From assembly GCA_020722205.1 (NCBI GenBank), contig DYLF01000011.1:1-45301 (forward strand): a DNA stretch of 45,301 nt. Direction: 5' to 3'. The notes under the pieces were generated by a model, which did no database searches, was not told the origin of the DNA, and saw only the letters and a list, made by a program, of their open reading frames with translations. Positions 36,000 through 39,850 of this stretch are shown here, in pieces (positions within the stretch are counted from its first letter, which is position 1; each line of letters starts with the position of its first letter). A program made the position numbers and the translations under genes. The DNA comes from Desulfobacca acetoxidans (GTDB lineage Bacteria > Desulfobacterota > Desulfobaccia > Desulfobaccales > 0-14-0-80-60-11).

Positions 36000-36330
36000 G
36001 CCTGGTCGTTGAGCAGTGATCTGCGAACAGTGTCCACCCGCCGACAGCCAACTTTCCTCCTGGCCGGTCAGGAACGCCTCGGCCTCTTTCCCCCCATCGG
36101 TGGGGGCTGAGTTTGCAGCCTGCCATAACCCTGCGGTCATTCTATAGAGTTGTAGCAGCGCCCACCTTACCCCCACCATCTGGGTTTCAACCGCCGGCCG
36201 CGGTTAGCTCCAAGGTGCAATGGGGGCAGCGCCCGGCCGGCAAAGGAAGGGCGAAATAACAAAAGGGACCTTTCCCCTCTCTTCACGTCCCCTCGTCCCA
36301 CACTCTTCAGCTCCCTGCTCTGCTTGCGGC
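36000..36330. other. Intergenic region between aor and UPF0182 (convergent)
   Basis: 331 nt. No gene, terminator with a T-tract, or promoter is evident. The last 25 nt enter a period-7 repeat tract that continues into the UPF0182 gene. Confidence 0.6.
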
Positions 36331-36368
36331 TCACGGCTCACGCTCAACGGCTCCCGGCTCCCTCTTCA
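36306..36368. repeat. Degenerate 7-nt tandem repeat over the 3' end of the UPF0182 gene
   Basis: The core 36327-36361 has five units: CGGCTCA, CGGCTCA, CGCTCAA, CGGCTCC, CGGCTCC. Weaker units in the same register extend on both sides. The UPF0182 stop codon (36331-36333) lies inside, so the repeat encodes its final residues. Confidence 0.75.
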
Positions 36369-38916
36369 CCTCTCCTCCCCGGAACCCCTCGAGGCGGCGT
36401 TTCAGGCGCTCCGTGTCAACCTGAATCTTCTGACTCAGCTTGGCAAAACCTTCTTCCAGCGAAGCTTCCATGACCACCAACTCTCCCCGGCTGATGATCA
36501 GCCGCTTGAGTTGGGGGATTTGCAACTGCCCGGCGGCCTTGAGAAACACGGACTGGATATAGTAAACGCCGCCTTCGATGGGCACCACCAGCAGGCGGCC
36601 GCGCTCCACCTGAGAGCCCAATTGGTTCCAGAGGGAGAACTGCTGGGAGATCACCGTATCCTGATCAATGATGGCGTTGACCTGAGAAGGGCCATAGACC
36701 AGAGCGCCTTTGGGAAAGCTGTAGACCATGATCTTCCCATAATTGGGCGGGTCACAGCCCACCCCCACCAAGGCCCGCAAGTTGGCCCGGCCCTTGGGCA
36801 CCATGGGCGTCAGCAGGATAAATTCAGCTTTGCGGTAATCGAAGAAATTAAGGGTGAGGTAATACGAATCCATGCGGACGCGGGCCTCGCCCTGCTGAAT
36901 CTCCGGCCATTCCCACAGGTCCTCCTGCTTGTAGAAGATTTCCGGGTCGGTCTGATGATACCGGACATAGATGTTCATTTGGATGTCAAAGAGGTCCTTG
37001 GGGTAACGCAAGTGGTCCTGCAAGACCTGAGGCATCTGCTGCAGATCCTTGAAAAGGCCCGGATAAATGCGCTGCCAGGCCCGGATGATGGGGTCGGCGG
37101 GATCAGCCACATAATAGTCCACGCTGCCGTTATAGGCATCCACCACGATCTTGACTGCATTGCGGATATAATTGAAACCTTCCTCTGAGGGTTGGGCGCA
37201 GGGATAATAAGGCGAAGTGGTGTAGGCGTCCTGAAGCCAAAAAAGGCCCTGGGGGGTGACTACGATATAGGGATCCCGGTCCAGTTTGAGAGCGGGGGTG
37301 AGGTATTTTATGCGTTCCACGATATGGCGGCGGAACAGCAAGCGGCTTTGCGGGTTGGTCTTGGTGGTGAAAAAGATGTCCTTCTCCTTAAAATACATGG
37401 CAAAGATGAGCTTGCGGAAGAGGGAATTGACAGGAATGCCGCCTTTGCCCTGATAGTCTGTGAGGGTGTGCCCCTCGGCGGTGGGATAGCCCACTTCCCG
37501 GCTGTCATTAGGGGCAATGGCCGGCTCATAAGAACCCAGGCCGTAATAGATGGCCGGCTGCAAAAGCTCCAGGCCGTAATCCGAGCGAGGCGGCAAATCT
37601 TCCAGGAACCAGACCATGGGCTCATCACCGCCCTGGGCCGCGGGGGTCATCACGGCGCCGTAGCCGTGAGTGTACTTGAGGCGCTTGTTGACCCAGTTTT
37701 GAGCGGCAGCCGGCAGTTTCTGGAGGTTCAACTCCCGGGCGGCCAGGAACACCTGCTGACGGGAGCCGCCCAAGGAGTAGCGATCCACGTCCACCTTGGC
37801 AAAATCGTAATAAGGCCGCAACCCCTGGAGTTCTTTGTACACCGGCCCCAGCATGTCCTTATCCCACACCGGGATATTGCGCCAGAGGCCGGGAAACTCC
37901 AGGGCCTCTCCCCTCTCCTGACTGTGCGCTTTGCTCCGATACTCCCTGGTCTCCACCTGATTAAGGCCGTAGGCCGCCAGCGTGGCCTGAATGTTCCAGA
38001 TCAGGTAAGGGCGCTCCCGACTGATTTCATCCGGCTTGACCAAATATTTTTGCGTCAGCTCCGGCAGCGCCTGGGAATAGCGGGCGGCACCGGACAAGAT
38101 CAGAAGCAGGCCGAAGACCACCACCCCCCTGAGGTAGCGTCCGGTGAGGAGGTATCCGACCAGAGAAAATGTCAAGCCGGCCAGAAAGACCAGCATGAGC
38201 CAGATAATGGGCAGGATCACCCACCTCTCCACAAAGCCCGGCCCGAAAAACAGCGGGGTGTGGGCGGTGGTGAATAGCAGTAAATGGCGCTGATACAGCA
38301 AGTACTTGAACCCCACGGCCGCCAGGCCCACCAGAATGACGCTCAGATGAATCCTGGCGCCTCGGGGCAGAGAGAGCTCTTCTTTGGCCAGCAGGCGCTT
38401 CTCCAGCCAGTAGAGCAGGGCCAGGCCCAGAAACAGCAGGGTCAGGGCAATGGCCAGTTCCCGCACGAGCAACCGGTAGATGGGCAGTCTGAAGAAATAG
38501 TAGCTGATGTCCACCCCGAAGGCTGGGTCGGCCACGTTTGCCCGGCCTCCGAACAGAAAAAGGAGGGTGGTCTCCCACTCCCGATAAAGCGGATAGGCCA
38601 CCAACAACCCCAAGAACAGGGAAAAGGGCAGATAAACCCTGAGGGAACCCTGGCGAAACTGGCGCAAGAGACGCCGCCGGCGCTTTTTCTCTGGCTCGTC
38701 TGCGGTCTGCGGTGAGGAAGTGCTGCCCAAAAACCGGGAAGCCACCCAAAAGTTCAGAAAAAAGACCAAAAAGAAGCCCAAGGTAAAGACCGCAAAGACC
38801 ACATAGCGATAAACCAGGCGCTGCCAGAAGTACCACTCATAACCCAAAGAGCGGAACCACCAGAGGTCCACCAGGAAATCGACGCCCAACATTATATATA
38901 GGGACGTTGTTGACAT
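36331..38916 (-). CDS. UPF0182-family large membrane protein
   Basis: An 861-aa conserved membrane protein of unknown function (UPF0182/COG1615). The first 300 residues have about seven hydrophobic helices; the rest is a large, mostly extracytoplasmic domain with WNIQATLAAYGLNQVETREY, TYTHGYGAV-like KYTHGYGAVMTP and GKIMVYSFPKGALVYGPSQV, typical of the family. The N-terminal eight residues (MSTTSLYI) and the C-terminal tail (KREPGAVEREP) are encoded by repeated DNA, so the ancestral ends may differ. An alternative ATG is at 38892. Neither start has a good ribosome site. Confidence 0.9.
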   Translation of the reverse strand: MSTTSLYIMLGVDFLVDLWWFRSLGYEWYFWQRLVYRYVVFAVFTLGFFLVFFLNFWVASRFLGSTSSPQTADEPEKKRRRRLLRQFRQGSLRVYLPFSLFLGLLVAYPLYREWETTLLFLFGGRANVADPAFGVDISYYFFRLPIYRLLVRELAIALTLLFLGLALLYWLEKRLLAKEELSLPRGARIHLSVILVGLAAVGFKYLLYQRHLLLFTTAHTPLFFGPGFVERWVILPIIWLMLVFLAGLTFSLVGYLLTGRYLRGVVVFGLLLILSGAARYSQALPELTQKYLVKPDEISRERPYLIWNIQATLAAYGLNQVETREYRSKAHSQERGEALEFPGLWRNIPVWDKDMLGPVYKELQGLRPYYDFAKVDVDRYSLGGSRQQVFLAARELNLQKLPAAAQNWVNKRLKYTHGYGAVMTPAAQGGDEPMVWFLEDLPPRSDYGLELLQPAIYYGLGSYEPAIAPNDSREVGYPTAEGHTLTDYQGKGGIPVNSLFRKLIFAMYFKEKDIFFTTKTNPQSRLLFRRHIVERIKYLTPALKLDRDPYIVVTPQGLFWLQDAYTTSPYYPCAQPSEEGFNYIRNAVKIVVDAYNGSVDYYVADPADPIIRAWQRIYPGLFKDLQQMPQVLQDHLRYPKDLFDIQMNIYVRYHQTDPEIFYKQEDLWEWPEIQQGEARVRMDSYYLTLNFFDYRKAEFILLTPMVPKGRANLRALVGVGCDPPNYGKIMVYSFPKGALVYGPSQVNAIIDQDTVISQQFSLWNQLGSQVERGRLLVVPIEGGVYYIQSVFLKAAGQLQIPQLKRLIISRGELVVMEASLEEGFAKLSQKIQVDTERLKRRLEGFRGGEVKREPGAVEREP

Positions 38917-38960
38917 ATTGACATTCTGGCGGGAGAAAGTAAATATTTCAACAACGTCCC
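38901..38960. mobile_element. 60-bp inverted-repeat element at the gene junction (MITE- or REP-like)
   Basis: The arms GGGACGTTGTTGA (38901-38913) and TCAACAACGTCCC (38948-38960) are perfect 13-nt inverted repeats, and pairing continues inward for six more positions with one mismatch. The 22-nt loop has no gene. The right arm holds the stop codon of the DHOD-like gene; the left arm lies next to and inside the first codons of the UPF0182 gene. No transposase gene is nearby and no target duplication is obvious. It could instead be a regulatory hairpin. Confidence 0.6.
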
Positions 38961-39850
38961 CTCCTTACAATCGCCTCGGCCTCCCGGGGGTGGCGCAGGG
39001 CCAGGGTGCAGAGGCTGACGGCGTCGGCCCCCAAATCAAAGTAGCGGTGCACATCCTCGCGGCAGGTGACGCCGCCGCCCATGATGAGGGGGACTTTGAC
39101 ATAGGTGCGCAGCCCAGCGTTGTAAGCACAGGCCTGGCGGAAGGCCGGACCGCCGGAGACCCCACCGCCTCCCGCCTGCCATAGAGGGGAGCGCCTTCCC
39201 GGAAAGACCAGTTCATATGGAATGCTGTTCACGGCGTGGAGGGCCGACACCCCAAGCGCCTCCAACTCCTGGGCAAACTCATAGGGGTGCACCACACTCA
39301 GCTTGACCACCAGATAGAGGTTAGGGTAACACTCCCGGAGGCGTCGCGTCAAGGTCAATCCCTGGATAATGTTATCACGGATGGCCTCCTGGGAGTTGGG
39401 GCAGGAGAAGTTTAGTTCCAGGGCCGAGAAGGCGGGACCCAGGTTTTGGCGGTAGATTTCTATGGCCTGAAGAGTTTCCTTGGCGGCCGTTTCCAGGCCT
39501 TTGGCAAACTCCGGATAGAAATTGGGTATCACCCGCCAGCCCCGCCGCAGGGACTTGGCGATCTGGCGGGCCAGGGCTTCCACCCCGCGGTTGGTTAGGC
39601 CGTAAGCGTTGAGCATCCCCATCCGGGGCAGGCGCTGTATATATTTCCAGGTGAAGGGGTTGGCCGGACGGAAATTCCCGCCGCGGCGGAAGCGGGTGGC
39701 CGATTTGGTGAACACCGTGGTGCCGGTGGCCCTGACGGCCCGCAGGAACCTGAGATAATCGGGCCACAGGGTGTAGGGAAAGATGCCCCGCCCCGCCGGC
39801 CCCAAGGCCGTGGAGATAACAATCCTGGAAAGATGGTGGGCCTGTTTCAA
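38948..39850 (-). CDS. Dihydroorotate dehydrogenase-like flavoprotein
   Basis: FMN-dependent TIM-barrel protein of the PyrD family, 300 aa. The core is ELNFSCPNSQEAIRDN (the SCPN loop), the FMN-contact lysine in LVVKLSVVHPYEFA, and the C-terminal phosphate-binding region IMGGGVTCREDVHRYFDLGA. The N-terminal half is less conserved than in normal PyrD, so pyrimidine synthesis is possible but not sure. The start codon appears to be TTG at 39850 inside a repeat. The last residues (GRC and stop) are encoded by the inverted-repeat element, so the C-terminus may have been altered. Confidence 0.78.
   Translation of the reverse strand: MKQAHHLSRIVISTALGPAGRGIFPYTLWPDYLRFLRAVRATGTTVFTKSATRFRRGGNFRPANPFTWKYIQRLPRMGMLNAYGLTNRGVEALARQIAKSLRRGWRVIPNFYPEFAKGLETAAKETLQAIEIYRQNLGPAFSALELNFSCPNSQEAIRDNIIQGLTLTRRLRECYPNLYLVVKLSVVHPYEFAQELEALGVSALHAVNSIPYELVFPGRRSPLWQAGGGGVSGGPAFRQACAYNAGLRTYVKVPLIMGGGVTCREDVHRYFDLGADAVSLCTLALRHPREAEAIVRRGRC

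Follow-up and report, generated by a model that had tools for sequence, protein, structure and literature searches.

A 60-bp hairpin, almost certainly derived from a TIR-type RAYT element, joins the end of a DHOD-like gene to the predicted start of a probably 5'-truncated UPF0182 gene in Desulfobacca acetoxidans

The window is a 45,301-nt stretch of Desulfobacca acetoxidans DNA (GenBank assembly GCA_020722205.1, contig DYLF01000011.1), part of a draft assembly of 2.64 Mb in 180 contigs. On its minus strand, a gene encoding a DHOD-like protein is followed by a gene encoding a UPF0182 protein, and the end of one and the predicted start of the other lie within a single short hairpin. The features at and around this junction are listed below.

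36331-38916, minus strand: UPF0182 gene, 861 aa predicted, without the native N-terminal hydrophobic segment
38890-38892, minus strand: a second possible ATG in the UPF0182 frame, 8 nt past the hairpin
38901-38960, minus strand: hairpin, interpreted as a non-autonomous element of 60 bp, with its left-type end at 38901-38927, its loop at 38928-38933 and its right-type end at 38934-38960
38914-38916, minus strand: in-frame ATG of UPF0182, created by a C at 38914, a position occupied by A in 16 other full-length ends
38948-38959, minus strand: last three codons of the DHOD-like gene (Gly-Arg-Cys) and its TGA stop, inside the right end
38948-39850, minus strand: DHOD-like gene, 300 aa, Pfam DHO_dh
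38960-38967, minus strand: UAAGGAGG, Shine-Dalgarno-like, at the foot of the hairpin
38961: outermost G of the right end, directly beyond the 60-bp element

The initial annotation had described the hairpin as two perfect 13-nt arms around a 22-nt loop. The arms, GGGACGTTGTTGA and TCAACAACGTCCC, are indeed perfectly matched, but the loop was overestimated and the symmetry understated: taken without gaps, 38901-38927 and 38934-38960 form arms of 27 nt each that are 89% complementary and leave a loop of 6 nt. Folded as minus-strand RNA, the hairpin reaches -31.2 kcal/mol, whereas shuffled sequences average -13.1 (z -6.4) and none of 200 equals its stability. Reading the codons directly bears out the claim that one arm encodes the last residues and the stop of the DHOD-like protein and the other residues 2-5 of the UPF0182 protein. 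The minus strand reads GGA CGT TGT TGA at 38959-38948, i.e. Gly-Arg-Cys-stop inside the right end, and ATG TCA ACA ACG TCC at 38916-38902, which are residues 1-5 of the UPF0182 ORF, the perfect arm accounting for residues 2-5. The plus strand of the element also contains, at 38918-38947, a TTGACA-18-AATATT sequence that faces the DHOD-like gene in the antisense direction.

When the 60-mer was compared by BLAST with its own genome, further copies were found (E 2e-12 and weaker), 64, 53, and 120 nt in length, together with single ends. A model of the 28-bp end detected 18-19 copies, 17 at E <= 2.4e-6 and two weaker; the model spans 28 positions and was built from 12 of these ends, which therefore match by construction, and five (C23, C31, C150, C156, and C27) lie outside its training set. 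Since BLAST copies and 17 modelled ends are present in the same genome, the inverted repeat is more than a chance arrangement. A search of 39 relatives gave no more than a single marginal hit (E 0.002), which makes the expansion of these ends particular to the lineage of the window among the genomes searched. A pattern for similar short dimers matched none in the genomes G036-G038, the pattern being shaped on the family of the own genome.

One pair of ends encloses a transposase gene. At C29:2500-3584, an element of 1085 bp, two inverted ends of the same type enclose a 337-aa ORF, so that the gene is surrounded by long terminal inverted repeats. Its product passes the Pfam Y1_Tnp threshold (31.9 bits, cut-off 23) and carries the NHVH (HUH) and YIHLNP (catalytic-tyrosine) motifs. 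It scores 62 bits against NCBIfam REP_Tyr_transpos, under the cut-off of 80, and its C terminus has a Bac_DnaA_C match at E 3.6e-5 (24.2 bits, below the Pfam cut-off of 31.5). Transposase homologues in G036-G038 are 45-53% identical and have inverted repeats of the (G)GGGACG form at their flanks. By published description, the C29 element matches the TIRtrons or TIRYTs (Di Nocera et al. 2013, PMC3733652), with which subclass 2.1 of TnpA_REP has been equated (PMC6006769). At its left end (L027:1019-1054, G000:C29), TTGACA is followed after 17 nt by TATTAT and, 7 nt further, by the transposase ATG; because this distance is so short, the transposase mRNA may be leaderless. A second Y1 transposase gene, only distantly related, lies at a contig edge of the same genome (C93:99-353 in G000; L039, L089).

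Comparison of the copies suggests how the one in the window arose. The ends are of two types, left (...TTGACATTCT) and right (...TTAACTTTCTC), and the window copy consists of a left end fused to a right end. It shares both with the full element and is without the transposase gene. Of 28 positions in its right arm, 27 agree with the 3' end of the full element; the last transposase codons lie in this stretch, and their retention points to a derivative formed by internal deletion. The 120-nt copy at C32 still has two distinct pieces of the transposase between its ends, the 3' one clear and the inner one narrowly supported (score 27, where 300 shuffles gave at most 26). As far as can be judged from these sequences, both the window and the C32 copies are best explained by internal deletion. 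The latter (G000:C32:16949-17070; L029:1050-1171) is placed between two convergent genes, and two copies at C152 resemble left-left dimers. The proposal that the hairpin is a non-autonomous, RAYT-type element is thus upheld by other copies and by a transposase gene bounded by the same inverted ends in its own genome, and the hairpin is almost certainly a derivative of a TIRYT element. Shared ends and dispersed copies suggest that the window copy may have been mobilised in trans by the transposase.

The DHOD-like gene is not alone in ending within one of these ends. Host genes that stop inside other copies encode SelA (GTLLKY*), an NT5C-like protein (GDVLEILT*), a DUF1015 protein (GTFVKY*), and a GGDEF protein; shorter ORFs without a Pfam match do likewise, and additional genes end a few bases from an element end. 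At least nine of 17 ends lie near gene 3' ends where about 3.6% would be expected at random, with P about 2e-9, a rough value that assumes 2400 genes and independent ends and uses a manual count. Such a supply of stops has precedent, since GTAG REPs are located at gene 3' ends and provide stop codons to flanking ORFs (PMC3116915, PMC3733652). Several of the ends at C27, C146, C150, and C156 are preceded by TAG (TAG|GGGACG), and the outermost bases may therefore form or favour stop codons. Read directly, the arm entered from the DHOD-like gene gives Gly-Arg-Cys-stop, in line with the earlier claim that the element supplies a stop. A substitution specific to this copy and absent from 16 other ends, C in place of A at 38914, creates the ATG at 38916 in frame with UPF0182 and gives that gene a candidate start codon.

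The initial annotation had also proposed that the element landed in the junction of the two genes. Gene order does not support this, the DHOD-UPF0182 neighbourhood being absent in the relatives examined. G007 has the order AOR, MoaD-like, ThiF-like, DUF1353-like, DHOD, KdsB, ClpB, and G001 keeps MoaD-like, DHOD, KdsB, ClpB, neither with UPF0182 there; apart from DHOD and UPF0182, these names were read from translations, without profile matches. In the window, UPF0182 occupies the interval between the AOR/MoaD side and DHOD-KdsB-ClpB. After AOR, at 36039-36107, lies a remnant (last 23 codons) of a MoaD/ThiS-like gene that is whole at this place in G007. A conserved neighbour of UPF0182 across all relatives was not found, leaving its former place untraceable.

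The protein ends at the junction differ from those of orthologues, so the refutation that the initial annotation had itself set does not apply. UPF0182 orthologues from the same family and order are 52-57% identical to the window protein; in each of four orthologues the WWF motif comes after 36 residues that include a strongly hydrophobic segment (19-residue mean 2.2-2.7), whereas the window protein has 18 residues there and lacks such a segment (1.2). An orthologue N terminus used as query against the own genome matches the window gene alone, from query residue 21, so the missing N terminus was not found elsewhere in the assembly. In DHOD orthologues the C terminus falls at nearly the same point, a few residues apart at most, and the final residues are not the same. 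On synteny and the missing UPF0182 N terminus, we rejected the idea that the element had inserted cleanly into an ancestral operon of DHOD and UPF0182. Nor is there support for UPF0182 having been carried in whole between a pair of ends, the sequence TTCACGTCCCC at 36282-36292 being within chance. Because the two genes are not adjacent in the relatives examined and UPF0182 has lost its native 5' end, the element probably marks the breakpoint of a rearrangement or deletion, and this reading remains likely when taken jointly with the TIRYT-derivative identity. Such an event would have fused the DHOD-like gene at its 3' end to a 5'-truncated UPF0182 and, judging from the orthologues, removed the native last codons of DHOD together with the native start and first hydrophobic segment of UPF0182.

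The most likely present mode of working would be translational. DHOD translation would terminate within the hairpin and UPF0182 translation would start on the same mRNA, either at ATG 38892 or by re-initiation at ATG 38916. There is no Shine-Dalgarno sequence immediately before either ATG. The AAGGAG at the foot of the hairpin lies 68 nt from ATG 38892 in linear distance and 8 nt from it once the hairpin is folded. In a local fold, the arms pair with a probability of 0.90 or more and opening the Shine-Dalgarno core costs about 1.3 kcal/mol; opening the region around ATG 38892 costs about 8.9, and this partly paired state counts against use of the bridge. The hairpin possibly couples translation of DHOD and UPF0182, and we regard active use of the element in UPF0182 translation only as a tentative proposal. 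Still more doubtful is the complete scenario, in which a miniature element of RAYT type was taken over as a full linker that would provide the DHOD stop, a UPF0182 start created by a mutation specific to this copy, and a hairpin bridging the Shine-Dalgarno sequence over 60 nt, thereby keeping the truncated gene translated.

A serious competitor to any such use, with somewhat less than an even chance of being right, is that the element is a neutral scar, which ended DHOD in a tolerant C-terminal tail and left a truncated UPF0182 that is poorly expressed or becoming a pseudogene. DHOD tails are variable among orthologues, UPF0182 is without its first hydrophobic segment, and the missing Shine-Dalgarno sequences fit this reading. 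Yet the UPF0182 reading frame stays open for 861 codons and scores 811 bits in Pfam, and ATG 38916 is due solely to a copy-specific substitution, even if ATG 38892 is independent of that change. Alternatively, the element could supply both promoter and start, with TTGAAA-17-CAGAAT on the minus strand (38951-38923) placing the RNA start at or beside ATG 38916 and yielding a leaderless UPF0182 mRNA. The similar arrangement before the transposase gene, TTGACA-17-TATTAT with an ATG 7 nt on, speaks for this, but the argument is a consensus match alone, weak at 9 of 12 positions, and the consensus may not be that of this organism; we consider it improbable. Neither alternative is exclusive of the identity of the element or of the breakpoint, since both concern only its present working.

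A dispersed repeat in a draft genome of 180 contigs could have led to a misjoin of two element copies that brought DHOD beside UPF0182. This is disfavoured because both flanks, AOR with the MoaD remnant and DHOD-KdsB-ClpB, have a gene order that fits relatives; moreover, no other copy in the own genome is identical over the 60 bp, and the lost UPF0182 start was not found on another contig. We therefore regard an assembly artefact as very unlikely. A strong hairpin between two genes might also be an ordinary intrinsic terminator or attenuator unconnected to mobile DNA, but dispersed homologous copies, together with a transposase gene lying between such ends, leave this next to no likelihood. 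An intrinsic terminator was rejected in its own right, a T-run and a terminator-like site being absent at the hairpin.

The reading of the hairpin as a TIRYT derivative at a breakpoint connects a tiny coding hairpin with one particular, little-studied group of transposases and gives a sequence-level view of how miniature copies may arise via internal deletion. It also presents a family whose ends, read in any of the three frames, were turned into host protein ends. Were the linker scenario true, the junction would offer a concrete, testable example in which a mobile hairpin separates a Shine-Dalgarno sequence from a start codon.

Several known systems resemble parts of this arrangement. REPINs and GTAG REPs mobilised by RAYTs (PMC3116915, PMC3733652) are likewise short inverted dimers with a related transposase class, prefer gene 3' ends, and give stops to flanking ORFs. 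They differ in that copies are few here and the window-family arms are not seen as REP hairpins of their own; a GTAG-type REP or REPIN was rejected, there being no GTAG/GTGG tag beside the palindrome and the ends of aligned copies reading GGGGACG. CGTC REPs share CGTC near the window-family end (CGTCCCC), but their stems of 8-9 bp stand next to an unpaired CGTC tag and they lack a dedicated transposase (PMC3733652), whereas the CGTC of the window sits inside a paired 27-nt arm and a transposase is linked, which excludes this class. In phage T4 genes 38 and 25, RNA structure shortens the Shine-Dalgarno-AUG spacing from 22 to 5 and from 27 to 11, respectively (PMC3014915). The likeness is in working only, as the window hairpin would cut the spacing from 68 to 8 nt; unlike the T4 structures, it is a mobile element, and its bridging is a proposal. 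The closest match is with TIRtrons/TIRYTs (PMC3733652, PMC6006769), which share the Y1/HUH transposase with NHVH and YIHLNP motifs, the DnaA-type C-terminal domain, inverted repeats starting GGGG, and dimers and single ends dispersed in the genome. Their GGGGWSAS motif, present in most members but not all, is fitted by GGGGACGT at six of eight positions (GGGGWS, without the last two). The window copy, a derivative of such elements, departs from them in joining a left to a right end within 60 bp and in its unusual place at the junction of two genes.
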